A DNA stretch of 64,000 bases from Morinoia aosen (Eukaryota; Arthropoda; Malacostraca; Amphipoda; Talitridae): the NCBI GenBank assembly GCA_030386875.1, contig CM059557.1, forward strand, positions 55,196,514-55,260,513. Direction: 5' to 3'. Positions within the stretch are counted from its first letter, which is position 1; the number at the start of each line of letters is the position of its first letter. The translations under genes were made by a program, and so were the position numbers. The notes under the pieces were generated by a model, which saw nothing but the letters and a program-made list of their open reading frames with translations, did not search any database and was not told the DNA's origin. Of this stretch, positions 43,101 through 64,000 are shown in pieces.

Positions 43101-46100
43101 ATTTTTTTTGACGAAAAAGAGTATTTCGGTATATTTTTATGGATATTTCAAAACGAGACTCGTCATCGAGTTTCGATGCTAGAACAAAACCAAAACCAGT
43201 TTTAGAATCCTTGAAACATTTCTAACAAACTCAAATTGCCTTTTTTTCCAATTTGAAAAGTTTCAAAATTTTGTCGATTTTTTCCAAATTTCTAAACCCA
43301 AAATTTTGTTGGGGGTTCAGAGCTATTTATGTTTTCAAAGAATTCGAATTTGGAAAAAAGCCGAATTTGAATTTGTTAGAAATGTTTCAAGGATTCTAAA
43401 ACTGTCTTTGGATTTGTTCTAGCATCAAAACTCGAGGACGAGTTCCGTTTAGAATGTAAAATAGTCAACTTTTCACTAGAGCTCAAAAACAAACTGTCTA
43501 TTGAATTTGAATATAATTAAAATTTGTGTACATGAATGCAGTTTCCATGTTCTATTTCGATGTACGAACAATGAGCAGCATTTTCCTTGTGAATTTCAAG
43601 TAAACATATAAGAAATATCGTACTAATGATAATAATAATAAACTCAGTTAACGACAACTTCGGTCAAGGACTATTTAGTTGTCGCTTTGGTAGTTTACCA
43701 AAGTAATCTCCGTCTTGATGCAATTATGATTTCAAAGCAATATTATTAAGAGTAATCTTAGCCCGTACGTTCAATTTCATCCACCGAGGACTTCACGGAA
43801 CCAACCACGCCGAGGCAAACCTGATAGAGCGAGACACAAAAATTTGGTGCATATCAATATTCTTCCCGTACTTGACGATGCATGGGGGTTTTCCAGAGTT
43901 TTAATTTCATTGATAGTAGCTAGAACCCCCGGGTGGGGTTCCAACTACCCGCCCTCACTATGGCCGAGCGCTGACCCATGCTGGAACCCCCTCTCAACAG
44001 AGAGTTGAGGATATAAGCACGGAGCGCTCGGCCATTTGCTTATCAAAATTCCAAGGTAGTGTCCGTCACACCTCCACTTGTCCACTTTCACCTTCACAGA
44101 TTTCCGAACACATTGATTTCCTTGATGAACTCCAGCACTCTACGGATGGGTCCTCCGTCCCGCAACACGTTCCCCGTATTAACATTCTTACCGGTTCCCG
44201 GCTTAAGTATTCGGTCTCTTGTTAGCTTCAGCGCGGTACATTCTTCCATGATATGTTTTACAGTTATGACCTCTGTTCCACACCATCCGCAAATGGGTCT
44301 CTGTCCGAGAGCCTGCGGGTCCAAGAGATAACTGTGAGTTAGGGTTGTATGGTTCAGTCGCAACCTATTTATGACCACCTCTTCCTGTCGGTTCAACTTC
44401 AAGTCGGCTCTCTTCCACTTTCCGGGGCTGGGTTTTATTGCTCGCAAGTCTCCTCGTTCCTGTTGCCATTCCACGTTCCAAATCTCGTATGTTCTTCTTC
44501 TAATTACCGGGAGCCAGTCGCTGTAGGGAATCAGCAGAAATTCAGCAGGTCTGGTTGCTGCCGCCTTTGCCGCCTGGTCCGCGCGCTCATTTTCAACTAT
44601 GCCAACGTGGGCTGGAACCCAGCTAATTGTTATGTTCTTTCCATCCGAAATAATCTGGTGCATCTCAAGCGTTAATTTTTTCAAAAGTTCATTATTTTCA
44701 GTGTAGCTATCGATCAATTGTATCGAGCTCATTGAATCGCTGCATATTACGAAGTTCTGGGCTGGCGTTTCCTTGATGATATTTAAGGCAAGCTTGATAG
44801 CGTGCAGTTCGGCTGTCATAACACTTGCCACGTCTGGGAGAGAGGCGCTTCTGATGATATCGCCCATCACGGCCGCTGCACCTACTCCCGTCGGTGACTT
44901 TGATCCATCTGTGTAGATGATTTTATGCTTTTGGTATCTCCTCATGTTATCTCTGTGTATGTGCCGTACGATAGATGCGTCTATTTCTTCTTTCATCATT
45001 TTAGTCATGTGCTGTTCCACTTCTGGTCTCCTCAAGACCCACGAAAATGATGCAGGTGTAAGGCTCGGCTGGACGGGCTGGGTTGGAATGTTATACTGAG
45101 TTAAGGCCTGACGTATTCTCTGGATAACCGGTTCTGAGGTGCACTTGCGGCTGGTAAAAAACATTTCAAGTTTAGTATTATTGACACAACAATATGCTGG
45201 ATTTAGGAAATGACATTTAAGCTTAAAGAAATATCGGAGTAGCAAGTCTTTCCTTCGTAGCTCTAGTTTTGGTTCGTTGCAAATGATGTGGAGGTTCGCT
45301 ATTGGTGTCGTCTTGAAAGCGCCCGTACTAATGCGCATTGCCTCGTTTACGACAGCATCAATCTCCCTCAGCGCCGCTGCACTGGCAGAACCGTACACTA
45401 TACTTCCGTAATCAATCTTTGACCGGATCAGGGATCTGTATAATTTCATTAGAATATCCTGATCTGCACCCCAAGTATATGCAGACACAGATCTCATCAG
45501 GTTCAAGTCATTTCGGCATTTTTCTTTTGTCTTATGGATATGGGTAATCCAATTGAGTTTTCTGTCCCAGTGGAGACCAAGGAACTTTGTGCTTTCGACG
45601 GTTGGTATTGTTTTTCCTTCTAGTTGCAGGGTTGGAACAAGTGTTGGTTCTCTCCCTTTATAAAAATTCATTGCGGTCGTCTTGGTTGAGGAGAATTTAA
45701 ATCCGTTTTGCATTGCCCAATGGGTGATTTTGTCTATTGTTATCTGTAACTCTGCTTGTACTTTGGTCTTGTCGTAATCTGCAAATGCTATGAGGAGATC
45801 GTCCACGAACAGAGAGCTGAACACTTCTGATGGGATTTCACTTGCCAATGAGTTTATTTTTACTGCGAAAAGTGTGACACTTAAGCCCGTGCCACACCTT
45901 GCATTATGTCAATGCAACTTGTAACTGTGTTGGTGTCACAGAACAACCGCTGCGGCCTAACCAGCTTTTGGATGAGAGCGTGACAACGCGCGGTAGTCAG
46001 TGGCATGGAAGCTGTGAGAGGAGGAGGACGTCAGACGACAATGTGCTCGGCAAAGCAGCTGCGCTCGGATTACCGCGGAACGCGCAAGCGAGACCACAGT

Positions 46101-49100
46101 GAGCGCTTGAGCGAGACAACCGTGCTCAATGCCTGCTTGGCTTGCACTGGCTCTGCTGTGCGCCGTCGTCCTGCTACATGAATCAAGCTGCCTAGACTTT
46201 TGCTCCTGATGCAGCCGAGCAGCTGAGAGAGCTCTGGGCAACTCGTCGGTGCGGCATGGAGCACTCGAAGTTGCAAGGTGTGGCGGTGCCTTTAAAGTGC
46301 TTTCCTGAGGCGTTCCTGTGGCTAGATCTTCAGCTTGAGACATTTCTTCCCCAAGTTTTACTTTAAACGTTCGATCTTTGAGGAATTCCTCAACGAATTT
46401 TGGCAATCTTCCCCTTAGACCAGCTGTCGCCAAATCTCTCAAAATTCCGTAGCGCCACGTCATGTCGTAAGCCTTTTCCAAATCAAAAAACACTGCCATG
46501 ACAAATTTATTATTGGCCAGCGACTGTCTAATGTACGTATCAAACCGTACAAGATGATCTACGGTTGCTCGATGTCGTCTGAAGCCACACTGCACACTGG
46601 AGAGGAGTTTATTGTTTTCGAGGTATTCCATTAACCTTCTGTTGATCATCTTTTCGTATGTTTTGCATACACAACTCGTCAATGAGATTGGTCTATAGTT
46701 ACTAGGGTTTGTGTGATCTTTGCCGGGTTTTGGGACAGGGATTACAATAGCCTGTTTCTATGGTTGACAGACGAATTCGGAACTCCATAGTTTGTTGTAT
46801 ACTTTCAGCAGATATTGGAGAGCATTAGTCGGTAGATTCTTGATCATAAGATTACTGATATTGTCCGGTCCAGGTGTCGTGATTTTGTTACTCTTGATGG
46901 CAGATGATAGTTCACACATGGTGAAAGGAGCATTGTATGGTTCTCTGTTGTTGCTTGTGAAGTCCATTGGGGATTGTTCAATAAGTTGCTTGTATTATAG
47001 GAATTGACTCGAGTAGTTTCTATCGCTGGATGTGGTCCTGAATGTCTCGGCTAGTTTCTCAACGATGGTCTTCAGCGTTGAGTATTGGACTCCATTCTCG
47101 CTTAGCATTTTTATTTGTCTCTTCACTCTTCCTCTGATTCTATTTATTTTCTCCCACACGCAGCTGCTAGGCGTGTTGGTGCTGAGAGTTGTGACGTACT
47201 CTCGCCAACTGCTCTGTTTTGCTTCCCTGAAGGTTCTCGTTGCCACTGCCCGTGCTCTCTTCCACTTGACCTTATCTTCCATCAGTCCTGTCCTCTTATA
47301 TATCCTGTAACACCTTTCTCTTTCCCGCCAAGCTGCTTTGCAGTCTGCAGTCCACCACGGCTTTGCATAACACCGTCTCCTCTTGTATTTAGGTACCCAC
47401 CTCTCAGCAGCGCAACCAAACTTTGTGTAAAGATCGACCACTGCCGCGTCTGGATCCTCCGGTATTTCAAGTTCGTGGGCATTTCTCCATATTTCGTCTT
47501 CACGATATTGCTTCCGATTGCCCTTCCTGAAATTCCATCCTTCCGGCTCAACACGTCCGTCAGCTTGTCGCACTGATAAGGTCAACACTATAGGGAAATG
47601 GTCGCTGCTAAGCACTGAAGAGAGGGCGGTAAATTTTACATCCGGTGTTACATCAGGGGTGGTCAAGGTCAGGTCAATCACCGATCCTGAGATATGGGTG
47701 GCTGAGTCATCATTGATAATATTAACGATGCCTTGTTTAAGGAAATCTTGCATCAATCGTCCTCTTCGATCTATGGTACTATTTCCGCAGTCACTGTGAT
47801 GGGCGTTGAAATCTCCCATCAGGATAACGGGTTTTGGCATTCCTTTGATTGCGTCAAAAAGCTCTTCGATGTTTATATTTGTCCTTAGTGGTAGGTAAAT
47901 AGATGCTACTGTAATGACTTTATAGTTATTTAGGCACACCCATGCACCAATAATTTGAGTAGGTGAATTGATTTCAATTTCTTGAGTTGGTATCGACGAG
48001 TGTACATACAGAGCCACCCCTCCATGGAACCTGTGGTTGTAATGGCCCTGCTTGCACCGACCATTATATCCCTGTATAGGTGACACAAAATCATTCCCAT
48101 GGAAGGTCTCCTGGACTGCTATCACTGCAGGTTTGTGTGTATCAACCAGGTTGATGAGGTCTTCTTTTGATGTCGCCATTCCCTGCAGGTTCCACTGGAT
48201 GAACTTGACTTCTTCCACCGCCATTACCTCCACTTGCGTATGTTGCTTTCCTTGGAATGTTGACCAGGCTTCCTTCCATCCTCTCGTCCTCTAGGAGATC
48301 TCCGCCTGTAGCTCTCTCCCGAATTTCCACGCGGCCGCTGTCCTTTATTTACTCTTACTTTTGGGCGAGTAGACTTCCGTAGCTCCTCTTCGTAGTTACT
48401 TCTGTCCTCCTCCTCCACTCTTCCCTTTGCCTCTCGCGTGTATTCATCAAATATCTTCTTCGTTTCTCTCACTCTTGACTCTCTTTCTTTTTCGCGGGCA
48501 GATGTCTCAAGGCTTAGGCTAACTTTCGTGGTGTAAAGTCTTCCTGTATTGGGACTTTCACAAACCACTTCCGTTTCTCTCTGAGTTTCGTCTCCGGTCA
48601 CTGACCACCTTCTGCTCCGGCCACCGTTTCCTTCACTGACCATTCCTGTTGTCGTCTTCTTCTTGCTTTGCTGCGGTTCCGCTGCCGGTTCTAGGTCATC
48701 TGCACGATTTCTTTTCTTACTTGTTATTAGTTCTATTTTATCATGGTTGACAGGTGTCATTACTGCCTTGCTGTAATTCATTGAAAAGTTGGGGTGCCGG
48801 TAACTGAACAATACTCTGGCTTGCCCCTTGGATACACGCTCTCTGCTTTGAATCACCAGAATTTCCTCCTCCATTACTCGCATCCGACAATTCCTCGCTC
48901 CAGTTACATGGCCCTCACCGCAGTGGTAACACTTACTTTCTTCCGTTGTACACTCGTCCATTTCATGGCCAGCCAAGCTACACTTGGGGCAGATTTGTTC
49001 CCCTTGGCAGTACTTCACTCCATGGCCATACTCCTGACATCTTTTGCATAACATAGGTCTCGGCTTTACTTCATAAACTTGTGATCTTGCTTGTTCTCCA

Positions 49101-52100
49101 GGTATATCAATATAATTTGGCAGGATAGGTTGTCTGAAGGACACTAATAAAGGTTTTGCGAGCTGGTTTCTGGGCTTTATCCATGTTGCTTGGACTACAT
49201 CTTGCGCGCCGCATTTTTCCAAGAGTCCTGTCTTGAATACTTCAAAATTGTTTAGGTCATATTCGTATACGTAGACGAGGCCTTTTTGAACAGCAAAGTC
49301 GAGATTTTCTTCTACTGTGACCGGTAGTTCATTTAATTGTCGTATCAGCTTCATTTTACGGCTTTGTGTTGCATCGCACACTTCTACTGTGAACACAGTT
49401 TTACTGCGGGATCTAATTGCTTTTGGTTTGTTACCGAGATGTTGAGTGATGCACTTCTCCAGCAGCCAGGGTGACATTTTCCTTCTGTGTGCTTCATTCA
49501 TTTTGCAGTCGAAATGTGTGATGAACTTATCAGGTGATGGTACTCGTTCCGTTTCATGCACACCCTCTTTAATTTGTTTTGCCCTTCTTAATGTTACCTT
49601 TTCCTTTTCTATGATCTGCAACAAACTTCTTTCTTCCATTTCTTTGTCACACTGGGTGCTGCCCGCTGCATGGGGTCCTCCACAGTGAGCACACTTCAGC
49701 TGCTCAGAGCTGCAGTTCAGAGAGGAGTGGCCCACCTCAGCACACTTCCTGCAGACAAGTGAGGTGCTGCGGCATAGCTTGGCGGTGTGTCCGTATGCCT
49801 GACAGTTGAAGCACATCATTGGCTTACTATTAAATGGGTATACCTTGGTGTCCTGTCTTTCCCCGGGGACATAAATGCTGTAGGGAACCGTCGGTTGCTG
49901 GAATGTTATCAGAAAAGCTTGAGTTTCAGAATATCTTGGTTTAATAAATGTTGCTCTGGTTACTTCCACCACGTTGTACTGTTCCTGCAGACCAGACTTG
50001 AATTCTTCGATGTCAACAATGTCGAAGTCACTAATGTATATTAAGCCTACCGAGTGGTTAAATCGGCCGTATTCTGTCGTCTGGCACGGTATACCTTCCA
50101 CGCACGTCACGCCAACAATCCTTTCTGCCTGCACTGCGCTCCGCACCTCCACCATCATCGTCTGACGGCCCATGCTGAAGATTCTTATCGGTTTCGCTCC
50201 AGTTATCTCTTAAATTTTTTCAATGATGTTAAATGGGTTGATAGCTCTCTTCCTTTCTGTTTCAAATATCATTGAGAAATACTTTGGAAAATATTGTTCA
50301 TTGTCTCTCACAACTAGAGGCACGTATTTCTTTTTTTCTTTTCTTGGGTTTTTATCATTTTTCTCCGTTAGTAGAACTTGTCCTGCAGGTGTGTCTGATT
50401 GTGCCATCAACACTGCCTCCTCGATTCGCCTCAGCCGTCCCTCAATCTCACTCACTCCACCAGCACCACTCACCTCCGCAGCTGTGGCTTCTCGACTCTC
50501 CGCAGATCCATCAATTATTGAAGCAATTGCTCCTTCAATCCTCCTTCGAATACCCTCAATCCTGTTCATCTGCTCCACCTCACCGTGAGGATTGCCGCTG
50601 TCTTGATCTCCCATTCCGCGTTGCGAGTCTTCCTTCCTCTCCCGATCAACTCCCGTTGGACACTCTTCACTCAACATTGTATTTAGTTTCAGGGGGTGGG
50701 TCCCCTTGATAAATCAAGGGGGCCGGTTAGTTTTTTCCTATTATACACACAGAAATTTGATATAGTTTTAGGCTTCAGAACACGAACAAAACTACAAATT
50801 TAACACAAAATTGGAACAATACACGATTTAGTAGGTTATGCAACCTAGTTATTCACCTTACACTAACGAACGCGTAGCAAACCAAAAATGAAAAAGAAAT
50901 TCACAACCTAGAGCACCGAGGTGCCCTAGGCGCCCCCCGCGTTGGTTCCACCCACAATAATTCTGATTGGCGATAAACTATTACAATAATCAAGTCGCTA
51001 TCCCAGTACAACAGGTTGTACGAATGACAGTAGTCGTAGTAGTGGGTGTACTAACGGCACCACCACGAGAAGGTGCGGGTGGGCTGGATACCCGCACCTG
51101 AGCACGGGTAACCTCTATCAAATCCTTGTCTGTTTTTCTTTTTTGTTCCCTAAACCACAAAAAGAAAGTTGCACATCAAATAACCGTAAGAAAATATTTC
51201 GAGTTCGATGCCAGTAAAATGTGGTAGAGGGAGCAGTGAAATTTCGAGTAAATAAAAATAATACATTTTATTTCAGTAATCATCATGATCAGACTTTATC
51301 AATTTTTTCTGTCCGATTTGTTTGAAAATTAGCCAGTATATGTCTTTTGTGAAAGTAAACCTTTTTTACTCGCGTCATTTTTTTGATTTAGGCCTTATAT
51401 TTTTTTTTTTTTTTTTTGACGAAAAATGTGTTTTTTGGTATATTTTTATTGACATTTCAGATTGCTACTCCTCCTTCAGTTTTGATGCCAGAACAAAAAC
51501 AAAGACAGGTTTAGAACCCTTGGAACATTTCTAACAAACTAAAATTAGGCTTTTTTTCAAATTTAAATTTATTCTATTTTTTTTTCAAAATTGGGCCTGA
51601 AATTCATCATTTTCGGTCCCCTTTTCACCCCCCTGGGTAGGGTTTTAGTGTCCGTAGGGCCATAAAATTTCATGGCACAATAACCCATCCCCTAAGGATC
51701 CTTTTTCAACAAAAGAAAAAATTGGGCCTCGAATTCATCATTTTCGGTCCCCTTTTCACCCCCCTGGGGGAGGATTCTAGTGTCCGTAGGGCCATAAAAT
51801 TTCATGGCACATTAACCCATCCCCTAAGGAACCTTTTTCAACCAAAAAAAAAATTTTCAGTGGGGGGAGCCGCCGGGGCCCAATTTGGCTCAAGATATTC
51901 CCCTTAAGTTCTGTCATGGTTAAAGGGGCTATTGTACGCTCTCTGTCTCCCTCAACGCAGCGGTCTTTCTTCCCAGCTTTCCTTGAAGCGCGTATAAGAT
52001 ATTGATTTCAATTTACATATTATACCAGAAAACCAACGGTAGATATACTATACCAGAAAACCAACGGTAGATATACTATACCAGAAAACCGACGGTAGCT

Positions 52101-55100
52101 ATACTATACCAGAAAACCGACGGTAGATATACTACACCAGAAAACAGACGGTAGATATATTACACCAGAAAACCGACGGTAGATATACTATACCAGAAAA
52201 CCGACGGTAGATATACTATACCAGAAAACCGACGGTAGATATACTATACCAGAAAACCGACGGTAGATATACTATACCAGAAAACCGACGGTAGATATAC
52301 TATACCAGAAAACCGACGGTAGATATACTATACCAGAAAACCGACGGTAGATATACTATACCAGAAAACCGACGGTAGATATACTATACCAGAAAATTGA
52401 CGGTAGTTATACTATACCAGAAAACCGACGGTAGTTATACTATACCAGAAAACCGACGGTAGTTATACTATAACAGAAAACCGACGGTAGTTATACTATA
52501 CCAGAAAATCGACGGTAGATATACTATACTAGAAAACCGACGGTAGTTATACTATACCAGAAAACCGACGGTAGTTATACTATACCAGAAAACCGAAGGT
52601 AGATATACTATTACAGCACCGACAGTATTGTAGTAAAAATAAAAACTTGTAGTAACAAAGCCAAAACCAATTTCATTTTAATAAAAAAAATGCCCACCTA
52701 ACTTTCAGTATGAGACCTCACATCTTCCTTTGGGAGCGCTTATTCTGATAGACATAAGTTTTATCCCCCAGAAGGGAGCTGAACATGCAGGCTTACAAGG
52801 AAGGGCTTCTGGTCGTACGAAGCCAGCTCATCACAGCTCTCGATGTACGAATCGAAGTTCTCCAAGAAGACCTTCCTCATGACGACGATGAGGCCGGCAG
52901 GCAGCTTGTGCGCCTCGGCATGTTTGACGGTCTCCAGCACCGCCACGCGCAGCGTCTCGTGGCGTGCAAACACGTCGAATTGCTTGCTATCTTTCTTGCC
53001 GCGAAACTGAAATGCCAAGACAGCTTTAGGCTTCATGTTAACTTTTTTACAGGAATGCTTTGAATGTCAGTCACAGGGAGCAATCTGTCACTACTGTCGA
53101 ATGAATCAGAAAGGAAACTATGGTAATTTTTTTACATTAAATGGGTATAATTCAATGGAGCTTTCATTCAGTGAAGTAATATTCTTTCAAGACTCCAGGA
53201 CACTACACCTAATATACTTTAAACTTCAAGCTTGGCGTTGAAAAAAAAATTTCCAGAAATCGTAAGAACGATTAGCGGTAATCATCCTACACTAAGATGA
53301 CAAAAAATATCTTCAAAAACAACAATGTTGAATTGCCCCAATCAGATCACTTCAGATAATGCTTTTTTTAAGGTTGAATACTACATAGGAGCCAAGTTAC
53401 TCCTAAGAAGTAAAAACATCAAATATCAAGTAGCTTTAATGACAATTCAAAAGACATTTTTAATATACATATAAAGACAACGATAAAAATTAGTGATAGC
53501 AAGAGTCACGGCACTTCAAACTCCTAATTTCTGTTCAAATGATCAGCATTTACAACTAGCTCCCAAAATAACTTGCCTGTGCTAGCCACTAAATGCGCTG
53601 AAAAATCGTCTTGACCAATACAAGATAGGAAAGCCCCAACCTACTGAATTCCTCATCCAAGGTCTAGTCTACACTTTACAGAAAGTAGAAAAACAATCAA
53701 ATGGTCTTAGACAAAACTTCACTTGAGAACACTCTTCATACCGAAAAGATTCAAAATAAGCAACAAAATAGAGGAGGAGATCACTGATTCTTATTATTGT
53801 CGATATGAAAAATAAAAGTTATAGGACTCGAACCAACAAAACATCTTTCACCCTAACAAAAAATACAAGCACTGACACTTGTATATGAAGAGAAATGCTC
53901 AGAATTTTATAACTTTTTTGCTACTTTTCCCTAGCTTCAAAGACAGTAAGCACAGAGAAGTGTTGAATTGATGATGTTTGTAGACACCGGTGGTACTGGC
54001 ACCAGTAATTTCATTAACACTTTGACTGCGACTATTAAATATTAAGTTCGATGCCAAACTCAAATTTAAAGTCAATTGTAGTTAAATATTTTGAAAATAG
54101 CAAACATGAACTGGATCGTGCATTCATTAAGCTTTGAATTAAGTATTCATGAAAATTAAGTTTGCGACTACTGGTCGGTCAGTAGCATTATGAAAATTAC
54201 CTCAGTGTATCACCGGTGACGCACGTCGCAGTCAAAGTGTTAATTGCCTCACTCATCCTTTACTGCAACTTTAGCTCTTGTAGGCGACTACTGGACAGGG
54301 ATGGAAAAAACCCAGGGTTTTTTAAAAAAACCCAACCCACCTGGGTTTTTTTGGGTTAAATTGGGTTTTATGGGTTTTATTGGGTTTTTTTGGGCTTTAT
54401 TGGGTTTTTTGTAATACCTGTTTTTCTAAGAGTTATTCACACAACTCCCGTTGCTCCTATTTCAGATTTATATACATACACTTATTGAGTAAACATAGTT
54501 ATTTGATTACTTTACTTCCAACATTATATTACCTTATTATATGAATTATTACATTATATGAACAATATATGAATTAAAGTTTGTCCATCGCAATTACCAT
54601 TTACCAATTACCATATGCATAGAGACATAGCTCTGCAGTCTGTAAAGATATAAGATGTCCAAAGAGAATTGCTATGCTCGTCAATTCATAGTAAGTTGTT
54701 TTAGCAGCAGACAGGCGCAAGTCATGTGAGAGGGAAGCACCATGCAGATCATAAATGACCACCACAAGCAGCTTGAAGCAAGACAGCTGCACATCACTTA
54801 ACAGTCATGCTGTTAACAACTTAACATGTGTATTGTGTGAGCTGGAGTGCTAAGCTGCGCAAGTCAAGTCAGTCAACCACACTGTTACATGTTACAACAT
54901 GTAGTGACATGCAAAATTTTTTTTTTAATTTGCTAAAAAATTTGCTTTTCGCAGTACAGGATAGCAACAAACACTAAAATGATTGGAAGTAAATGCGCTA
55001 ACAGATTCCAACATCAAATTTGTTCCAGTGCAGCTTGAATGCTCCCATAGGCCAGTAGTTTCTTTACTTTCTCACCCCATGATGGCTGCGGTTGTCTTGC

Positions 55101-58100
55101 CCCATCTGACTATAATTGTTAGACTTATTTCAATTTAAACAATTTATTTACCACAGGTGATACAGAGGTAGAATGTTTCTTAAGTCTAATACAATGGTCA
55201 AATTTGAGTATAGCTACCTGTGGGCCCGAATAAGTTCAGCGACTTCTAGGGCATCCTACCATTACATTATTCTAGGATGTACAATAATGTTTAACCTAAT
55301 TCACTTAGCCTAGTTTCACATTAGACTGATCAACAAGATAATGAACTCGATATTGATGTTTCATTTTACAACATTTAAGGCAAAGCTCTCACAGGAGATG
55401 GCTGAGTACAATCCGGAGTTCATCGGTGCGCTTTACTCCTATAAATTGAATGACTCCAACATCTTCCCAAAACACATGTTCAATGAGAATATCACTAAGA
55501 TAATGACTCCTTGTTGATGGTGGGATATTCAAGACATGAAACAGCAGAAAATGCAGATTCATGAAAAAACACTGGCAGAGGGTTTCTGCAAGTTTATAAG
55601 CAACCTTCATTCTTGCCCCGCAAGTTCATCCATTGAGAGACATTTCTCAACATTTGGAATTGTGTGGAATAAATTGAGAAATAGATTAGGATCAGAACGC
55701 GCACAGAAATCGTCTCACAGTATATCGCCACCTCACAAATGATCATGATGTGGATGACAACGATGAAATGGCAGTGGATGTAGAAAGAGAAACACAGTAG
55801 TATTGTAGTAGCAGTCTAGTCTAGAAGACAGGAAAAATTCAGAAGTCTCTATATTAAGTAGTCAAACTGCATTTGTTTCTAAATTTTTGTTTTTTATTTT
55901 GGAAATGGAATTCATTAAAATATATTAGTCCCTCGATTTTTTTTGTGATTAAGGTTTTTCTAATTTGATTTGTATAGGGTTGGTGTTTTGTTGTTCAATG
56001 TTTTCTTGTCATAGTCATGCACATGACTTAGAGACTTATTTTGATAAGATAAATATTTAGCTCATTTTGATTCTACAAGCTTGAAAGCAAATAAAATTTA
56101 CCTAGCAGTAATAAAACCCAAAAAAACCCAAAAAAACCCACTATTTAGTGGGTTTTTTAGTGTGGGTTTTTTTGGGCTTTTTTGGGTGGGTTTTTTTGGG
56201 TGGGTTTTTTATGTGCCAACCCTGCTACTGGAGCTTTATGGCACTGGAACCGCTGAAAAACTCAACAATAAAAACCCATTGCTTAAAAACCCAACCAGAT
56301 ATGCATGATGCAAATTCATGCCTCTTCCTACAACTGGGCTACTTTTACAATAATAACCCAACAGGCATCACTCAATACAGTATTTCTGAATACCTACTAT
56401 TTCATGCAGCAATAGGCTCGCCACTCTGTTACCTAAGGCAAAAGAATTCCTAACCTTTTCATAGCCAGGCTCATGGCAGAGCGCATTGGGTGTGAAGATG
56501 GACTGGATGGACACCAGCACGGAGGCCAGGTTGTTGGCCGCAGACCACCGAGGACCATCCCAGGTACTGAATGAGATGAACATGAGACAGGCCCATCAAC
56601 ACCATGAAGATGCAGCCCTACAGGGCTGGGTGACTGGTCATATAAAGCCAGCTTATCACAGCTCTCCATGTACGAATCGAAATTCTCCAAGAAGACTTTC
56701 CTCATGATGAAGATGTCAGATCACAAGCAAGAAGCATCAGAAAAGTTTGAAAGGATTTTGGTCCAGTCAATTAAAATATATTGCATGCTAAAATGACATA
56801 CATGACATAGCATGGGAATGTTCAAGCTCACAAGACAAAAAAAAGGATGTTAGGTGTGTTGCTGACTATGCACAATTTGATTTGAAGAGAAAAATGAGAC
56901 TCAAAAGCAGGGAAGGCATTGAAAAAATCCCCCATTTAAAGCCAAGCTAGTGAAACATAAAAAAAGCCACAAGTACTTTGTCTTCTTCATTTTTAAATGC
57001 CATTTTGAGTTATCAAGCTAATTATATTGCGTTCATTCGGATATGCAAGACAATTTCTATTTTTAAATTCAACAAAATTTATCTTCCATTGATCCAAAAA
57101 TCTGAAAATGAACTAATTTGGAAGTACCATGTAACGCCGATTGCGATACAAAATGAAAGGAATTTATGAAGTTTCTCAACCTTCAATACCTAGAAATTTT
57201 ACTAACTGTTTGGTTTCATTAGCAACTAGCGTATTTTGCTTGTGGCCCCACACAAAACCAAACGCAGAAAATATCTGATCAGTAAGTCGGAACTTGCTGA
57301 GTAAAAGTGATGCTCAGAAATGAATGCGCAGAAACATCTTTACCACAGTTTCTGTGTTTGCTTCCATCGCTTCTGTTGAAACAGATTGGATTAGTCGTTA
57401 GTTTTAGCCTCCCTACCCAGCAACAAATGCGATCCAAAGAGAGGAAGGAGGAAGGCACCATTTAGTATGGAGTTAAGGAAACGTGGAATCTACGCCGAAA
57501 GGCATAGAAACTGTAAGTTGTGAAAGAAGATCATGAAACAAGACCAAAGTTGAAGAGGATAGTAGTAGGTGATGAAGAACAGGACAGCAGTGAACCGAAA
57601 AAAGGCGGTCCTCAACATAATAAAAACATTTTATTTCAACAAAAAAGAAGACCTACCTAACTCTCAGCTCGGGCCCTGACATTGTCCCCCTGGGAGCGCT
57701 AGTTCCCATAGATTCAATAATTGTATCCCCCTGAGAGGTTCTATTGAAACAACTTGCACTATTTTCTAGTGCTATGGAGAACAAGAGGGAATCACTCAAC
57801 ATGTGTGAAATAACTGAACATACATCTTACATTTATTTACTACATTAAAAGCCTAAATGAAATTAAAACACTTGAGCTACCGTACTTTTGAAACTCAGAC
57901 GTGGCCTGAATGGAAGGAGGTCGGAGTAACAGACTAGCCCATAAGACTGTCACACAACAAAATTATTACTATCACACAATAAACTGTTAGGCGCATCAAG
58001 AAACCAGACAAGGTCAACACAACAGACCAAAAATTCATCATCAAGTTCTAAAACTCAAAAATTTTGATCCCCATATCAAAAATCTATCACAGGTACCACA

Positions 58101-61100
58101 CGAAGCCAAGAAACTGATCTTACCCGAGTAGGCTGAGGCACACAAAGCCATTGACGTAGAGGTTGGGGTGGAAGCGCACGTTGCTGCCGAACCTGTAGCT
58201 GCTCATGCAGCAGACGCGGGGCGGCTCAAAGGGATATTGCGGGCCAAATCTGCACGCAATCGCAGTTTTATTGGTGGGTAGCACAAATTGAACGAGAAAC
58301 ACATGCTGCTCACACAGTCACACAACACCCTTGAAAAATCATCGGTTGTTACATGAATTTATTTGTTCTAAATTTAATATTTTTTTGAAAGAATCTGCTA
58401 AGTTGGCATAAGGTCATTTGCTGCAAATAAATATTAGCAAATTAGATTAGGTTTAGATTAGAATAAAAGTTAGTTACAGCCTCTTCAACCACACAAGACG
58501 TGTCCCAAATCAAGGAAGGATGTAAGCTTCATTTGGGATGGAGATAAGAGAACGCAAATCTATGCACATGTTCAATTCTCATGTACTTTCGTTAATTATT
58601 TGACCAATTACCAAAAAACAATTTTTTCCCTGAAAATTTGTGTCACCATGAATGACGAAACCCTAATAGAAATTAACAGTCTAGGGAAATGTTACATTAA
58701 ACAGGACACCTGAAAATAAAAGAAGCAGAAGACAAAAACCATCAGCAACAGCCATCAGCTCAACTGAGCATGAAGCAGAAGACAAACACCCTCAGCAACA
58801 GCTCACCTGAACAAGAAGCAGAAGACAAACACCCTCAGCAACACTTCACCTGAACAAGAAGCAGAAGACAAACACCCTCAGCAACAGCCAACAGCTCACC
58901 TGAACAAGAAGCAGAAGACTAACACCCTCAGCAACAGCCAACAGCTCACCTGAACATGAAGCAGAAGACAAACACCCTCAGCAACAGCCAACAGCTCACC
59001 TGAACAAGAAGCAGAAGACAAACACCCTCAGCAACAGCCAACAGCTCACCTGAACATGAAGCAGAAGACAAACACCCTCAGCAACAGCCAACAGCTCACC
59101 TGAACATGAAGCAGAAGACAAACACTCTCAGCAACAGCCAACAGCTCACCTGAACAAGAAGCAGAAGACAAACACCCTCAGCAACAGCTCACCTGAACAT
59201 GAAGCAGAAGACAAACACCCTCAGCAACAGCTCACCTGAACAAGAAGCAGAAGACAAACACCCTCAGCAACAGCCAACAGCTCACCTGAACATGAAGCAG
59301 AAGACAAACACCCTCAGCAACAGCCAACTGCTCACCTGAACATGAAGCAGAAGACAAACACCCTCAGCAACAGCCAACAGCTCACCTGAACAAGAAGCAG
59401 AAGACAAACACCCTCAGCAACAGCTCACCTGAACATGAAGCAGAAGACAAACACACTCAGCAACAGCCCAACAGCTCACCTGAACATGAAGCAGAAGACA
59501 AACGCCCTCAGCAACAGCCAACAGCTCACCTGAACAAGAAGCAGAAGACTAACACCCTCAGCAACAGCCAACAGCTCACCTGAACATGAAGCAGAAGACA
59601 AACACCCTCAGCAACAGCTCACCTGAACAAGAAGCAGAAGACAAACACCCTCACCAACAGCCAACAGCTCACCTGAACATGAAGCAGAAGATAAGCAGTC
59701 TCAGCCACAGAGCCAACAGCTCACCTGAACATGAAGTGAAAGAAGCCCCCAGCATAAGGGGAGTCAAGCGTGCCCACAATCATGGCATGAACGAACGTCA
59801 GGTCGTTCTCATCCACGTCGAGGTAAATCCCGTCAACCTCGTGAGTGTGCAGCTGTGCTATGTCCCTGCAAGGCAACAACAATTATTTCAGTGGCAGGAC
59901 ACTGAAAATGTGTTAGCCAAGTTTGATGAAGTGAGAACGTCATCATGGTTACCAGCTGGCAGGGGTTACCCGGAGCAAAGATTTGATTACCGATAGCAAA
60001 CATGTGGTCATCAAGAGCAAAGACTTGATTATCAAGAACATCATTAGACATCAACTGAGACAAGGGGCCAAAGAAACAAGTAACTCTGATAGAGTAAACA
60101 AGTATCATACATCAAATCAAGTAAATCTTAAAAACAAGTGAGCCCAGGGAGACAAAAAAAGTAAGGAAGCCAGTCAAGGGAGACAAAAAAGTAAGGAAGC
60201 AAGTCAAGGGAGACAAAAAAGTAAGGAAGCCAGTCAAGGGAGACAAAAAAAGTAAGGAAGCCAGTCAAGGGAGACAAAAAAAGTAAGGAAGCCAGTCAAG
60301 GGAGACAAAAAAAGTAAGGAAGCAAGTCAAGGGAGACAAAAAAGTAAGGAAGCCAGTCAAGGGAGACAAAAAAGTAAGGAAGCCAGTCAAGGGAGACAAA
60401 AAAGTAAGGAAGCCAGTCAAGGGAGACAAAAAAGTAAGGAAGCCAGTCAAGGGAGACAAAAAAGTAAGGAAGCCAGTCAAGGGAGACAAGAAAGTAAGGA
60501 AGCCAGTCAAGAGAGACAAGATAGTAAAGAAGCCAGTCAAGGGAGACAAGAAAGAAAGTAAGGAAGGAAGTCAGGGAAGACAAGAAAGAAAGTAAGGAAG
60601 GAAGTCAGGGAAGACAAGAAAGAAAGTAAGGAAGGAAGTCAGGGAAGACAAGAAAGAAAGTAAGGAAGGAAGTCAGGGAAGACAAGAAAGAAAGTAAGGA
60701 AGGAAGTCAGGGAAGACAAGAAAGAAAGTAAGGAAGGAAGTCTGGGAAGACAAGAAAGAAAGTGAGGAAGGAAGTCAAGGGAGAGACGAGGAAGGAAGCC
60801 AAGGGAGAGACGAGGAAGGAAGCCAAGGGAGAGACGAGGAAGGAAGCCAAGGGAGAGACGAGGAAGGAAGCCACGGGAGAGACGAGGAAGGAAGCCACGG
60901 GAGAGACGAGGAAGGAAGCCACGGGAGAGACGAGGAAGGAAGCCACGGGAGAGACGAGGAAGGAAGCCACGGGAGAGACGAGGAAGGAAGCCACGGGAGA
61001 GACGAGGAAGGAAGCCACGGGAGAGACGAGGAAGGAAGCCACGGGAGAGACGAGGAAGGAAGCCACGGGAGAGACGAGGAAGGAAGCCAAGGGAGAGACG

Positions 61101-62637
61101 AGGAAGGAAGCAAAGGGAGAGACGAGGAAGGAAGCAAAGGGAGAGACGAGGAAGGAAGCCAAGGGAGAGACGAGGAAGGAAGCCAAGGGAGAGACGAGGA
61201 AGGAAGCCAAGGGAGAGACGAGGAAGGAAGTCAAGGGAGACCAGGAAGGAAGTCAAGGGAGACCAGGAAGGAAGTCAAGGGAGACCAGGAAGGAAGTCAA
61301 GGGAGACCAGGAAGGAAGTCAAGGGAGACCAGGAAGGAAGTCAAGGGAGACCAGGAAGGAAGTCAAGGGAGACCAGGAAGGAAGTCAAGGGAGACCAGGA
61401 AGGAAGTCAAGGGAGACCAGGAAGGAAGTCAAGGGAGACCAGGAAGGAAGTCAAGGGAGACCAGGAAGAAAGTCAAGGGAGACCAGGAAGAAAGTCAAGG
61501 GAGACCAGGAAGAAAGTCAAGGGAGACCAGGAAGGAAGTCAAGGGAGACCAGAAAGAAAGTCAAGGGAGACCAGAAAGAAAGTCAAGGGAGACCAGGAAG
61601 GAAGTCAAGGGAGACCAGGAAGTCAAGGAAGACAACAAAGGGAGTCAAGGAAGGAATTCAAGTTAAATAAGGGTTAGATTAGATTATCAGTCCATTTTAG
61701 CCTCACTAACAGCTGCAAGAAAAGCATATTGAAGAGAGGAAGGAGGAAGGCACCATTTAGTTATAGAGATAAGAGAATGAGGAATCTGTGCAGAATGAAC
61801 ATAGAAACAACAAGTTGAAAAAAAGTTCATGAAATAAGATAAAAGTTGAAGAAGAAAGTCATGAGGTGCTGAAAAACAGGACAGCAGTGAACCAAAAAAA
61901 GGTGGTCCTTAACATTTCAAAAATTAACATTTTATTTCAACAAAAAGAAAGCCTACCTAGCTCTCAGCTCGGGCCCTCACATTTTCCACTTGGGAGCGCA
62001 TATTCCTACAGATACAATAGTATACCCCTGAGGGGAGTTGAACAAGGAAGTCAATCGAAATGAAAAAATGTAGTTGCAAACCAAAAAAATTGCAGCAAAA
62101 TAAAATTTGAAGTAATTAAGAACATGTAGAGAGAAAAAATAATAAAATCACAATACAGATAGACCAAAAAATTGTAAGCCTAACACAAACCAGAGTAGAA
62201 TAAAAACTGATTACAGAGCAACAACTTACAAATGGAAAAGAATTTTACAAAATGAAAAAGAAATCTAAATAAACAAATTTAAATGAAACAAAATATCATA
62301 GAAAGCATACCAAAACAGCTTTAAAAAACTCACTTCTGTGCCCTGGAGATAGACATGTGAGAATTTCCAGCAGCATCCCAGGTCCGACTTGAAAAAGGGC
62401 AGACATTAATACCAAGCTTTCTGTGTGCCTCAAGGGCAGGGCAGGTGTGCTTGTGGCCGTACCATCCAGGCTTTGCATTGGGATGATGTGGCGGCTCCTC
62501 CTGTGGTGCACTGGGTGCTGGTCTGGTCGAGCTCTTCCAGCCCAAATACTCGTTTGGGGTGGGCGTTGCAGCTGGTGTCTGGCTGCTTGATGAGTTTCCT
62601 TCTTCTTCTTCTAACATCATTGAAGCTGCTAAGCTTT
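39737..62637 (-). CDS. UBE2Z: UBE2Z-like ubiquitin-conjugating enzyme (E2), six visible exons
   Basis: E2 enzymes carry activated ubiquitin or a ubiquitin-like protein as a thioester on a catalytic Cys. Vertebrate UBE2Z (USE1) works with the E1 UBA6. Exons, read on the minus strand: 62637-62334, 59865-59725, 58249-58124, 56566-56455, 53006-52797, 40138-39737. All junctions are AG/GT and all phases agree, giving about 430 codons (human UBE2Z is 354). Diagnostic parts: a [11 protein letters not shown] strand, [14 protein letters not shown] then [11 protein letters not shown] with the catalytic Cys, [25 protein letters not shown], and the UBE2Z-specific C-terminal part [13 protein letters not shown] and FLENFDSY. 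The tail is unusually acidic. An in-frame splice acceptor at 62637 suggests an earlier exon; otherwise the ATG at 62620 is the start. The large introns are loaded with transposons and minisatellites. Confidence 0.88.
40139..40724. other. UBE2Z-like intron 5, left part
   Basis: AT-rich intron with a short CA run at 40567-40580 and about three degenerate copies of AGCATTCAATTGAGCTATTTT-like sequence at 40605-40685. Confidence 0.5.
40725..41250 (-). pseudogene. Old non-LTR reverse transcriptase relic, 3' half
   Basis: Minus-strand translation gives [72 protein letters not shown], and [19 protein letters not shown], i.e. fingers and palm motifs of an I/Jockey/R1-type RT in correct order with stops and frameshifts. 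Its upstream part resumes at 51908-51990 on the far side of a 10.65-kb insertion flanked by TTAA. It is related to, but distinct from, the younger element at 43630-51240. Confidence 0.82.
41255..42283. mobile_element. Fold-back TTAA element X
   Basis: A 1.03-kb element with inverted arms of about 300 bp: left 41255 onward starts GGGAGACGTGCACCC, right arm ending at 42283 starts, on the minus strand, GGGAGACGTTTACCC. The arms share AGATCTATGAAAATTGGC, ATAGGGGTCGTC, and CTTCTCAAAAAGTACTTAT. A third related copy of part of the arm lies in the middle (41645-41790). Flanks are TTAA at 41251-41254 and TGAA at 42284-42287, a probable decayed TTAA. A poly-C run sits at 42100-42115. No protein coding. 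Confidence 0.7.
42455..42775. repeat. Inverted repeat inside unit 1 of element Y
   Basis: Arms around 42460-42550 and 42665-42770 are complementary (GACAGTTTTAGAATCCTTGG versus CCAAGGATTCTAAAACTGTC, and flanking ATGCCAG/CTAGCAT). The loop is about 110 bp. The same structure recurs in unit 2 at about 43150-43450. Confidence 0.75.
43150..43450. repeat. Inverted repeat inside unit 2 of element Y
   Basis: Second copy of the hairpin, with arms around TTTTAGAATCCTTGAAACAT and ATGTTTCAAGGATTCTAAAA (here the arms carry matched T/A changes relative to unit 1). Confidence 0.75.
43921..44035 (-). other. Structured 3' UTR of the retrotransposon, possible pseudoknot
   Basis: Stem 1 is a perfect 13-bp inverted repeat (ATGGCCGAGCGCT at 43960-43972, AGCGCTCGGCCAT at 44023-44035). 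Stem 2 pairs GGGGTTCCA (43935-43943) with TGGAACCCC (43982-43990), the latter lying in the loop of stem 1, so the two interleave as in an H-type pseudoknot. GGGGTTC can alternatively pair with GAACCCC at 43924-43930 as a local hairpin. Another small hairpin (CTCAAC / GTTGAG) lies inside. Such structures could be where the RT recognises its RNA; that role is inference. Confidence 0.5.
44094..48224 (-). pseudogene. Retrotransposon ORF2: endonuclease, reverse transcriptase, RNase H (disabled)
   Basis: Starts at ATG 48224, overlapping the ORF1 stop as TAATG. AP endonuclease, residues 1-220: [22 protein letters not shown] and SDHFP, so all catalytic positions are present. [52 protein letters not shown] and FVDD (45809-45798). 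RNase H (44921-44559): YTDGS, AELHA, SDS and [15 protein letters not shown]-terminal CGWC..H..C motif follows. Lesions: TAA at 46997-46995, TAG at 46760-46758 where a Trp codon would fit, and a 411-bp MITE after TPQES (45885-46295). All parts share one frame; without the insert it spans about 1,240 codons. It would nick the target DNA and prime reverse transcription there. Confidence 0.92.
45885..46295. mobile_element. 411-bp TTAA MITE inside the RT domain
   Basis: Foreign sequence, richer in G+C, between TTAA at 45881-45884 and TTAA at 46292-46295. Its imperfect inverted ends share CCACACCTTGCA (left GTGCCACACCTTGCA; right, on the minus strand, CACCGCCACACCTTGCA). RT coding on both sides joins in the same frame if it is removed. 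TTAA duplication suggests piggyBac-type mobilisation. No coding capacity. Confidence 0.8.
48224..50677 (-). pseudogene. Retrotransposon ORF1 with duplicated Gag-like module (one stop)
   Basis: One frame of 818 codons from ATG 50677 to TAA 48226-48224, broken only by TAA at 50212-50210. It would package element RNA. The first ~110 residues are polar. Module A spans the stop: a poorly scored RRM-like region ([25 protein letters not shown]), then CCHC knuckles [28 protein letters not shown] and [15 protein letters not shown] (49813-49649). Module B repeats it: [46 protein letters not shown], then [28 protein letters not shown] and [15 protein letters not shown] (49048-48887). The spacing of all three knuckles is the same in A and B. 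The C-terminal third is basic and Arg-rich. I-type ORF1 proteins normally have one such module. Confidence 0.9.
50678..51240 (-). promoter_or_regulatory. Retrotransposon 5' UTR
   Basis: About 560 bp between the inferred 5' end and ORF1. It contains a GTGCGGGTGGG / CACCTGAGCACGGGT-rich patch near 51070-51110 with complementary GTGCGGGT / ACCCGCAC segments (hairpin). Non-LTR elements of this type usually have an internal promoter here; no core element was pinned down. Confidence 0.5.
51590..51850 (+). repeat. Two ~130-bp tandem copies inside element Y
   Basis: Two near-identical units (starting AAATTGGGCCT at about 51592 and 51720), each with TTTTCGGTCCCCTTTTCACC, GTCCGTAGGGCCATAAAA and CCCATCCCCTAAGGA blocks. 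Confidence 0.9.
51908..51990 (-). pseudogene. Old non-LTR reverse transcriptase relic, 5' part
   Basis: Minus-strand reading ...[19 protein letters not shown] runs up to the TTAA and continues in frame at 41250 with [13 protein letters not shown] when elements X and Y are removed. It aligns with the younger element's [19 protein letters not shown] segment. Confidence 0.75.
52015..52612 (+). repeat. 28-bp minisatellite
   Basis: About 21 units of 28 bp: ACCAGAAAACCGACGGTAG followed by ATATACTAT. Variants are mostly single substitutions (GTTAT for ATATA, GAAAATT). It lies in UBE2Z-like intron 5 close to exon 5. Confidence 0.93.
52615..52790 (+). repeat. ~350-bp interspersed repeat family, 3' part (copy 7)
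   Basis: Only the distal half: TTTCATTTTAATAAAAAAAATG, CCTAACTTTCAGTATGAGACC, TTTGGGAGCGCTTATTCTGAT, then a GGGAGCTGAAC end that stops a few bases from the exon 5 donor at 52796. Confidence 0.65.
52797..53006 (-). CDS. UBE2Z: UBE2Z-like exon 5
   Basis: A 210-bp exon, phase 0 at both ends, acceptor TTTCAG before [11 protein letters not shown], donor GTAAGC after KPFL. It encodes the [13 protein letters not shown] helix and [19 protein letters not shown], which match in order the post-UBC part of human UBE2Z. Strong G/C third-position bias. Confidence 0.9.
54014..54243. mobile_element. TTAA-type MITE (piggyBac-like), copy 3, intact ends
   Basis: 230 bp from TTAA to TTAA with matching ends: TTAACACTTTGACTGCGAC and, on the other strand, TTAACACTTTGACTGCGAC. 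This is the best-preserved of three family members. It lies in UBE2Z-like intron 4, only 52 bp from the hAT element. Confidence 0.85.
54296..56224 (+). mobile_element. hAT element, 1.93 kb, with perfect 8-bp target duplication
   Basis: Ends CAGGGATGG (54296) and CCAACCCTG (56224), inverted to CAGGGTTGG; flanked by identical CTACTGGA at 54288-54295 and 56225-56232. Both ends carry many TGGGTTTTTTTGGG-type repeats, likely transposase binding sites. The only coding remnant recognised is the C-terminal dimerisation region near 55540-55740. Sits in UBE2Z-like intron 4. Confidence 0.9.
55370..55740 (+). pseudogene. hAT transposase C-terminal (dimerisation) remnant
   Basis: Plus-strand translation ...[16 protein letters not shown]... 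then, after a stop near 55513, [32 protein letters not shown], the hallmark of the hAT family C-terminal domain (SxxER-FS, LRNRL). The rest of the transposase is missing or unrecognisable, so the element could not move itself. Confidence 0.85.
56455..56566 (-). CDS. UBE2Z: UBE2Z-like exon 4
   Basis: A 112-bp exon. Acceptor TTCAG before the last base of a Gly codon, then [24 protein letters not shown] and HEPGYEK, donor GTTAGG. It forms the segment just after the catalytic Cys (human [23 protein letters not shown]). Confidence 0.92.
56631..56712 (-). pseudogene. Stray partial copy of UBE2Z-like exon 5
   Basis: The minus strand reads [24 protein letters not shown], nearly identical to the 3' half of exon 5 ([24 protein letters not shown]), about 65 bp upstream of exon 4. 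Order is wrong for a mutually exclusive exon, and the donor sequence is replaced. Differences at the protein level are few (I to M, E to K, S to L). Confidence 0.85.
57388..57750 (+). repeat. ~350-bp interspersed repeat family, copy 4
   Basis: Full-length copy: TTAGTTTTAGCCTCCCTACC start, GAGAGGAAGGAGGAAGGCAC, ACAGGACAGCAGTGAACCG, CTCTCAGCTCGGGCCCTGAC, GTATCCCCCTGAGAGG end. In UBE2Z-like intron 3. Confidence 0.85.
58124..58249 (-). CDS. UBE2Z: UBE2Z-like exon 3 with catalytic cysteine
   Basis: A 126-bp exon after acceptor TGCAG, donor GTAAG. Encodes [27 protein letters not shown] and [11 protein letters not shown] and the downstream Cys are the E2 active-site signature. Confidence 0.93.
58440..58600 (+). 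repeat. ~350-bp interspersed repeat family, partial copy 5
   Basis: Proximal half only: AAGTTAGTTACAGCCTCTTC, AAGGAAGGATGTAAGCTTCA, GGAGATAAGAGAACGCAAAT, CTATGCACA. Confidence 0.5.
58735..59735 (-). repeat. ~50-bp minisatellite built from the exon 2 splice donor
   Basis: About 19 units, mostly 50 bp with some of ~41-45 bp, abutting and overlapping the 3' end of exon 2. On the minus (transcript) strand each unit reads CTGAGGGTG, TTTGTCTTCTGC, then TTCATGTTCAG followed by GTGAGCTGTTGGC; TTCTTGTTCAG is a common variant. The last 12 exon bases and first ~14 intron bases at the real junction (59725/59724) are the same as in the repeats, so the array arose by duplication of the splice junction. 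Each unit has a branch-like CTGAG, a pyrimidine-rich tract, CAG and GTGAG in the spacing of a recursive splice site. Confidence 0.9.
59725..59865 (-). CDS. UBE2Z: UBE2Z-like exon 2
   Basis: A 141-bp exon after acceptor TTGCAG, donor GTGAGC. Encodes [20 protein letters not shown] then [26 protein letters not shown], the first part of the UBC fold (human RDIMSIYK...[22 protein letters not shown]). If the donor is bypassed, the codon AGG is followed at once by TGA. Confidence 0.92.
60140..61660 (+). repeat. Compound polypurine minisatellite in intron 1
   Basis: Four adjacent arrays of related purine-rich units: about 60140-60545 (~30 bp, GTCAAGGGAGACAAAAAAG), 60545-60770 (~34 bp, GTCAGGGAAGACAAGAAAG), 60770-61230 (24 bp, GGAAGCCAAGGGAGAGACGA), 61230-61645 (21 bp, GTCAAGGGAGACCAGGAAGG). 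The shared GTCAAGGGAGAC...GGAAG core shows one origin with successive unit changes. The plus strand is almost all purine; the host transcript is therefore about 1.5 kb of pyrimidine. Long frames on both strands are artefacts of 21- and 24-bp units. Confidence 0.93.
61668..62045 (+). repeat. ~350-bp interspersed repeat family, copy 6
   Basis: Full-length copy in UBE2Z-like intron 1: CATTTTAGCCTCACTAAC, GAGAGGAAGGAGGAAGGCAC, AAACAGGACAGCAGTGAACC, CTCTCAGCTCGGGCCCTCAC, CCCCTGAGGGGAGTTGAAC end. Confidence 0.85.
62334..62637 (-). CDS. UBE2Z: UBE2Z-like N-terminal exon
   Basis: A 304-bp exon; donor GTGAGT, acceptor TTTCAG just before 62637. The frame is open to the acceptor, and ATG codons at 62620 and 62617 lie inside, so it may be the first coding exon or an internal one. 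It encodes a low-complexity acidic, Ser/Pro/Thr-rich start ([18 protein letters not shown]), a His/Cys-containing middle and MSISRAQK, which joins DIAQ of exon 2. Human UBE2Z likewise has a disordered N-terminal region before its UBC domain. Confidence 0.75.
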
Positions 62638-64000
62638 CTGAAATGAAATGACTTGTTTCAGAAAAATAAGTGTTAGGTGCTTACAAACAAGTACACTTCT
62701 TACCTGCCAGCATATCATTTTTGTGAATAGGAAATAGGATTTTTGCATTGCTTTTTCTATTTTGATGTTCAGTGTGTGCATGCAAACAATATTCCTTATA
62801 GAAAAAAAAAAATTCTAAAATATTTTACAACAAGCACTATTTCTACCATGTATTAGATTTTTTCAAAATGAATATCAATCAATTAGGATATTTAAATTGG
62901 CACCAGGTATTCAAATTCCAACTTTTGTAAATAATCAACTCAATAGCCTTACTCATTTTCAATTTTTGAATACAAAAAGTATTAAAGCATATGTATCTTT
63001 AATTATTAGGTATGTCTCTTTATATAGACATCTCAATAGTCAGGCAAAATATTGTACTATATCATATATTTCCTTTACTTATGATGAAAAAACTCCTCCA
63101 TAAAGTTTGTAATTCAATCAAGTAAATAGAATATAAACAAAAAAAAATAAAAAATTAGCAGGGTTAGGTATCTTATCTTTCTTTGAAAACAATTGCAAAC
63201 ATAGGAGCTAGCATTCAGTTATTTCACAATCGTTCACTTTACATTTTGCACGTTTTTGCCACTAAAAATTAAATCATGCACTGAAAACGCATTGTGAGAA
63301 CCAATTTGGCTTTTCTTAGTCTGAATCGTTTATTTCAGTATAAAGTTTAGGAAGGAAGCACAAGACAGGTAGCAACATGTGGGCCTAGCAAAATTGAAGC
63401 CCCTTTCATTTCTTTGTTTCAAGGTCTGTGTAGTATCATGAATGGCGTTTCTATGTTTATTTGATGAAAATACACTTTCCAAACGAAAAATGGCTTAGTT
63501 TAATTAAAATTTCACAGGAGTTTTTAAAAATTTCAAATGCGTACCGTCAGATGATTTGGAATGAAGTCAATTCTACTCTTCTCTTTCATCTCCACACGTT
63601 ATATACGTGAATGTCCCAAGATGTATTCATCAACCCCTGAAAATGCGAGTTGATGCCAGACGCCGCAATCATACGATTTTATATGACATAAACCACACAA
63701 GTACCTATACCAAATTATAGAACAATTACCACACAAATCATCATAGGATAGAGTTATTATTTTGGTCGAAATAAAAACTGTAGCTGATGTTCAAGAGACT
63801 GGAACGCTTCATCAGGTATTACGCACTAGGATTCATGGACTAAATGAAAATATTACATTTGACATTAGAGGTACTTTACCTTAACGTGTACACCAATTTA
63901 TCAGCACAGAGCTTATATCTGCTCGTAAAAAAATGTTATATCTTGGAACGAAGTTAGCGCAGCAATAGAATTTGTTAGGCCTAACAGCACAGCCGCCACT
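62638..64000. other. Upstream of the UBE2Z-like gene, no feature supported
   Basis: AT-rich sequence. If 62637 is a true splice acceptor this is intron leading to an exon outside the window; if not it would contain the promoter, but no TATA, initiator or CpG patch was recognised. Confidence 0.35.

Follow-up and report, generated by a model that had tools for sequence, protein, structure and literature searches.

We propose that the tandem array occupying about 69% of the ~1.48-kb intron 2 of a UBE2Z-like gene in the window (the whole 64,000-nt stretch of DNA analysed here) is a mirage-type minisatellite: an amplified duplicate of the exon 2/intron 2 junction, in which splicing most likely still relies on the authentic 5' splice site while the copies most likely persist as tolerated decoys. 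We put the probability of this reading at roughly three in four. Mirages were named in amphioxus, where the accessible portions of two reports describe them as minisatellite-like copies over an exon-intron boundary, on the 5' or 3' side and many with AG/GT signals, in genes including Adh3, the globins BflGb6 and BflGb9, TnC and PGBD5; the length of the clusters varies, and RT-PCR suggests that splicing is regular and undisturbed (PMC3087553, PMC3902484).

Three exons (2, 3 and 4) of the minus-strand gene match human UBE2Z (5a4p, E = 3.5e-37), and the Pfam family UQ_con was also matched; a Pfam scan of one minus-strand frame of 56001-64000 gave no match, and Rfam gave none. The exons and the authentic donor are placed as follows, a slash marking the splice boundary here and below.

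59725..59865, minus strand: UBE2Z-like exon 2, 141 nt, ending FFHFMF + AG; source of the exonic portion of every repeat unit
59719..59727, minus strand: authentic intron 2 5' splice site, CAG/GTGAGC, with its +1 G at 59724 and a phase that fits exon 3
58124..58249, minus strand: UBE2Z-like exon 3, placed by homology; completes the Arg codon; acceptor weak by matrix (0.40)
56449..56566, minus strand: UBE2Z-like exon 4 (...EPGYEKVR), placed by homology; boundaries approximate

A stretch within exon 3 is presumably the UBE2Z active-site region. Elsewhere in the window, similar coding stretches ([MI]ESCD...) lie at approximately 56604-56705 and 52785-52880 on the minus strand and look like a duplicated exon piece of one gene region. 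Remnants of a non-LTR retrotransposon extend over several open frames of 44094-50713 (minus strand), with Pfam matches to endonuclease, reverse transcriptase and RNase H in two frames. The genome that holds the window measures 1.99 Gb in 29 contigs; that of amphioxus is about 0.5 Gb. Four genomic places score above the cut-off for the CHH/ITP neurohormone family, which is an arthropod or ecdysozoan family; the genome is therefore arthropod-like and not that of amphioxus.

The array and its parts are these.

58722..59736, minus strand: junction-spanning minisatellite ("mirage"); TRF period 50, 21.1 copies, 89% match; mostly 50- and 43-bp units
58801..59675, minus strand: 19 further CAG/GTGA sites, 18 of them CAG/GTGAGC and one CAG/GTGAAG (+1 G at 58849)
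58704..58766, minus strand: degenerate end units, CAG/TTGAGC (+1 at 58763) and TTTTCAG/GTGTCC (+1 at 58709)

The array begins inside exon 2 and takes in its last 12 nt; the real junction is the first of its copies. With the authentic site counted, it holds 20 CAG/GTGA sites (19 CAG/GTGAGC and one GTGAAG), spaced 50 or 43 nt apart apart from single steps of 51 and 52. On the minus strand exon 2 ends in TTCATGTTCAG, followed directly by GTGAGC, and all 19 further copies are identical to this junction over 7 or 12 exonic nt and 4-14 intronic nt. Two statements of the sequence-only reading that preceded our work, that this is a tandem array of donor copies and that its unit is built from the exon/intron junction, are thus borne out. 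Other statements had been made of every unit and apply to fewer. The fixed exon-derived sequence, TTCATGTTCAG, is present in 10 of the 19 copies, the remaining 9 carrying TTCTTGTTCAG and being those with the 7-nt exonic identity. The motif CTGAG, placed about 28 nt before the AG of each unit, occurs in 18 of 19 segments, its A 28-29 nt ahead of the AG end, and is missing from one. A strong donor after an acceptor-like stretch, likewise ascribed to each unit, is found in nearly all copies. The tandem unit spans an exon-intron boundary and recurs in many copies with AG/GT signals, the two structural marks of a mirage.

Could the array instead be an unrelated satellite that contains a donor by chance, its match to the exon end a coincidence? 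Our search of the genome with the whole array, which scores the best candidates only and skips very common words, returned, besides the array, nine places with 64-68% identity to it, and among these matches we saw no dispersed satellite closely resembling it; the sequence-only reading had named sharing with such a satellite as one of the findings that would undo its proposal. Seven other loci were fetched, and on four of them repeat-finding showed different arrays, of two low-complexity kinds plus L007, whose 21 units of 42 bp contain TGTTCAG/GTGAGCTG and follow a stretch that looks like an exon but has no proven homology. That a weak match is a different array bearing TGTTCAG/GTGAGCTG as well is a point for coincidence, as is the number of donor-bearing arrays in this genome with no recognisable exon at the edge: among 13 donor-array loci whose edges we read, a coding exon is proven by homology at one only (L039, HTATSF1) and plausible at L042 and L044. 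We nevertheless regard coincidence as very unlikely. Up to 12 exonic and 14 intronic nt are identical at the exact junction where the array starts, and coding sequence is copied at other junctions as well (see below). Among 9 arrays selected from the 38 TRF rows of the window, that of UBE2Z was the sole case in which the donor was equalled by none of 500 shuffles of the unit; the second-best array, at 8896-9416 on the minus strand, gave P = 0.01. A shuffle test for a longer exon-derived portion of the unit was not significant (P = 0.38).

Many donor-bearing arrays of this genome are not established as mirages. In HTATSF1 (6nsx, E = 1.7e-7), an exon ending GAETF + AG is followed at once by a 20-bp array that carries 14 donors; here the exon is a less certain source of the unit, the exon side sharing only 4 nt. 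Two pairs of donor arrays on C1 (L056/L057 and L059/L061) have been duplicated together with their flanks, and L040 and L058 have similar flanks, which suggests that some donor arrays may travel within larger duplications or elements. Within the window, a 44-bp array of about 17 copies (14754-15490, minus strand) has the edge ...GTGGACGT/GTGAGTCTGC and most of its copies read GACGTGGGAGTC; it is possibly a junction array in which the donor has been lost from the copies. Pfam found no match in the flanks near three other window arrays, this one included (three frames, one strand each). Genome-wide pattern counts at first sight give an excess of tandem donors, with 9658 matches to CAGGTGAG (three donors in tandem) vs 1094 to the reversed pattern and 3129 to CAGGTAAG vs 1160 reversed. 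We discarded both counts as proof because giant arrays dominate them: a dinucleotide-matched control word gave 4858 matches (2871 reversed), and all of its listed places lie in one large array.

Comparison with paralogs in the same genome bears on the age of the array. In a tandem UBE2Z paralog 18-20 kb upstream, exon 2 ends FFQYMV + AG/GTGAGG, and this donor is the sole CAG/GTRAG within the first 1.2 kb of the intron, which suggests either that the array arose after the gene duplication or that one gene copy has since lost it. A further UBE2Z paralog (L050:1060-1542; C2, ~55.294 Mb) has a 71-bp array (6.8 copies) whose start lies within exon 3, with 30-31 identical coding nt around NGHICLSIL in the four copies compared and the donor AA/GTGAGT. 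This exon 3 junction array is independent of the exon 2 array in the window.

To see boundary repeats in a sample picked by gene and not by repeat, we took 56 Cpn60/TCP1 exons out of 72 search matches; the other 16, which we excluded, comprise a long open frame on C4, four pieces from C1 and, on C26/C27, 11 matches of bacterial type. We located junctions with the matrices around the ends of each match, not from annotation; 93 of 112 possible ones could be scored, and some of the stretches overlap. Repeat-finding and boundary reading together gave tandem copies at five junctions, two donor-side and three acceptor-side.

L069, donor-side: 26 exonic nt, with one mismatch, present twice
L114, donor-side: 15 exonic nt present twice, the second donor altered
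L113, acceptor-side: five copies, about 14 exonic nt
L079, acceptor-side: two to three copies
L107, acceptor-side: four copies, only 2 exonic nt

For L069 and L114, tandem duplication is a better term than array, and two copies are a low bar. Under a fixed rule that counts a junction as spanned when the repeat includes at least 3 exonic and at least 10 intronic nt, 4 of the 93 scored junctions are spanned. We also considered junctions as hot spots for arrays and rejected the idea: arrays cover 5/93 at the junction vs 8-12/93 at 50-140 nt into the intron (P = 0.12 to 0.57, not significant; past ~150 nt, fragment ends bias the coverage downwards). Since coverage at junctions is not above that of the nearby intron, junctions are not preferred.

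Two further observations came from these protein searches. On C27 (~56.8-71.8 Mb) and C26 (20.8 Mb), long intronless GroEL-type matches lie megabases apart, as if bacterial chromosomes had been joined into the scaffold. A myosin-head search of the genome gave 79 matches; at 35.644-35.649 Mb on C1, six myosin-head exons fall on one part of the profile (~376-452) and resemble a mutually exclusive exon cluster. Arthropod Mhc has mutually exclusive exon clusters.

Splice-site scoring of the units, which had been proposed as a check of the earlier reading, was carried out with splice-site frequency matrices that are not fitted to this species. Exact donors score 11.98, a value that none of 6255 GT outside masked arrays reached (window, both strands). 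As acceptors, the AGs at the 20 array sites reach 10.1-12.6. For the exon 2 acceptor the value is 9.18, and for that of exon 3 (58249, minus strand) only 0.40, which 30% of background AGs attain as well, though the reading phase supports it as the acceptor. The highest acceptor-like score in the array, 13.40, belongs to the TTTTCAG/GTGTCC end unit. Given this difference, it is plausible that some splicing to array AGs occurs incidentally. All array sites are copies of one founder, however, and are therefore not independent evidence for a function in splicing.

The juxtaposition of acceptor and donor had been read earlier as the layout of recursive splice sites. If so, intron 2 would be removed stepwise through the array, with the AG/GT units as ratchet points, and the strong donor and acceptor scores of intact units beside the weak exon 3 acceptor favor this, as does the fit of 9 of the 20 sites to the minimal recursive motif Y5+N0-4YAGGT. 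The layout itself is present, with AG and GT adjoining and strong acceptor scores; what is not supported is recursion as its cause, because the acceptor look is already coded by the exon. On its own, the real exon 2 end reaches 11.43 as an acceptor; the 128 synonymous codings of GFFHFMF all give acceptor scores of 9.3-11.5, those of the human peptide GFFLFVF give 9.4-15.4, and random codons average 0.85. Since coding for this conserved peptide yields it, the acceptor appearance lies in the exon and would simply have been inherited by the copies. An AG before a GT is in itself ordinary, as 55.6% of constitutive exons in human have AG at their end according to the available text of PMC10156609. 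On this ground we set recursive splicing aside as the main reading.

Further features of the array bear on this reading. The minimal motif also fits 13 sites elsewhere in the window, counting both strands, and does not fit the authentic junction. Intron 2 is just ~1.48 kb long, and the share of human recursive lariats grows with intron length, as far as the accessible text goes. One-unit steps would be introns of 43-52 nt with only 14-23 nt from the donor to the CTGAG adenine, although multi-unit steps would be long enough and are sterically possible; human introns below 66 nt are termed ultra-short in the parts of PMC4463651 available to us and are unusual, though bona fide examples exist. 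CTGAG is a poor branch site against the yUnAy consensus. In a gap-free count over the 20 decoy junctions, with one indel segment skipped, 3 of 180 core splice positions are changed vs 16 of 696 elsewhere (P = 0.78); the splice core shows no excess conservation over other positions of the unit. At other genes, some boundary repeats lie on the acceptor side. A fold of 201 nt of the array gave no unusual RNA structure (z = 0.32). As described in part of PMC8906543, recursive sites are zero-nucleotide exons or ratchet points, and the UBE2Z units resemble them in joining acceptor and donor at AG/GT; they differ in forming a tandem series of about 20 at intervals of 43-52 nt within a 1.48-kb intron and in fitting the minimal motif at only 9 of 20 sites. 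Taking this together, we consider functional recursive splicing unlikely.

The claim that use of any downstream donor would put TGA straight after the AGG codon is correct as a reading of the sequence, and the predicted protein would be truncated. Transcripts with premature stops are subject to nonsense-mediated decay. Since later-donor use adds TGA at once, such transcripts should decay, and one could imagine a copy-number rheostat, in which the decoys compete with the real donor, misuse adds AGG TGA and leads to decay, and the length of the array sets the dose of the enzyme. The stop can be read directly from the sequence, and 18 of the 20 decoy cores remain identical to the real donor. These intact decoy donors do not indicate selection against the copies, and nothing indicates selection for them. 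One UBE2Z paralog does without an array, and the amphioxus RT-PCR results, as far as the accessible text reports them, suggest regular splicing across mirages (PMC3087553); we find a dose-setting role quite improbable. Even less probable, to the point of being hardly credible, is that the array acts as a sponge for U1 and U2 snRNPs: it would offer about 20 U1 sites per transcript, at a duplex energy of -11.1 per exact site, but the intron of a single gene is a tiny share of all donors.

We therefore return to the mirage-type minisatellite as the best explanation and suggest how it may have formed. A segment of ~50 bp across the exon 2/intron 2 junction would have been duplicated in tandem, and slippage or unequal exchange would then have amplified the duplicate, as the mixture of unit lengths and the variants shared between units suggest. 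The mixed lengths, seen here in one haplotype, further suggest turnover of the array. By analogy with amphioxus, the exon-proximal authentic donor is most likely still in use and the copies would be tolerated decoys; it may be preferred because it is the first to be transcribed and defines the natural exon. Tolerance may also have been helped by the form of the units, because unit-to-unit splicing would restore AG/GT. Joining the GT of one unit to the AG of any later unit, for which the 20 sites allow 190 pairs, would shorten the array RNA and leave the message unaltered. Given AG/GT units, splicing between them would leave no trace in the mRNA.

From this follows a broader idea, which we offer tentatively and think less probable than not by a wide margin: that minisatellites born at junctions are frequent in this genome and that those with AG/GT units behave as self-erasing latent introns, the array being partly removed by internal splices before or together with the joining of exon 2 to exon 3. 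If this is true, such arrays would be invisible to selection, their persistence would be explained, and they would form a standing stock for intron gain. Inertness should not be assumed, because human boundary repeats can accompany novel introns and alternative transcripts, according to the accessible text of PMC2812944.

Known systems place the array more closely. It is like the amphioxus mirages in being made of tandem copies across an exon-intron boundary with AG/GT retained. It is unlike them in its host, a 2-Gb non-cephalochordate genome, in its ~20 copies that are nearly all donor-intact, and in the occurrence of such repeats at several unrelated genes. Variable internal tandem repeats at exon-intron boundaries are also described in human segmental duplications and proposed as a source of novel introns, in the portion of PMC2812944 available to us. 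The UBE2Z array shares with these the minisatellite units at an exon-intron boundary; the human repeats, as described there, lie in recent paralogs, average four units of 30 bp and have alternative transcripts in many cases, whereas the UBE2Z array is longer and sits within an existing intron. In fission yeast genes, introns run across four or two 24-bp AGGT duplicates, and in potato RdRp a single duplication crosses an intron-exon boundary, to judge from the accessible text of PMC4974935. As in the Rogers model of intron gain, so far as its available description goes, GT and AG both come from tandem AGGT units, and splicing between copies restores the sequence; unlike in that model, the UBE2Z duplicate lengthens an existing intron and creates no new intron position. 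In one open-access literature collection, covered mostly at the level of listings, we found neither a "mirage" by that name outside amphioxus nor any arthropod case.

The UBE2Z array is best read as a long, donor-intact example of the known mirage kind, in a genome where boundary repeats recur. Boundary-copying repeats of the kind named in amphioxus have been proposed as raw material for new introns, and related human and potato cases are known, as the partly available sources describe. Here they are found at several unrelated genes of one genome, at about 1 junction in 20 in a small gene-chosen sample. If that rate holds, this genome would be a natural experiment on how the spliceosome chooses among up to twenty identical sites, and it would also test whether introns are gained from duplicated AG/GT boundaries. 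With its 19 identical donors at a single junction, the UBE2Z array offers a clean test case.
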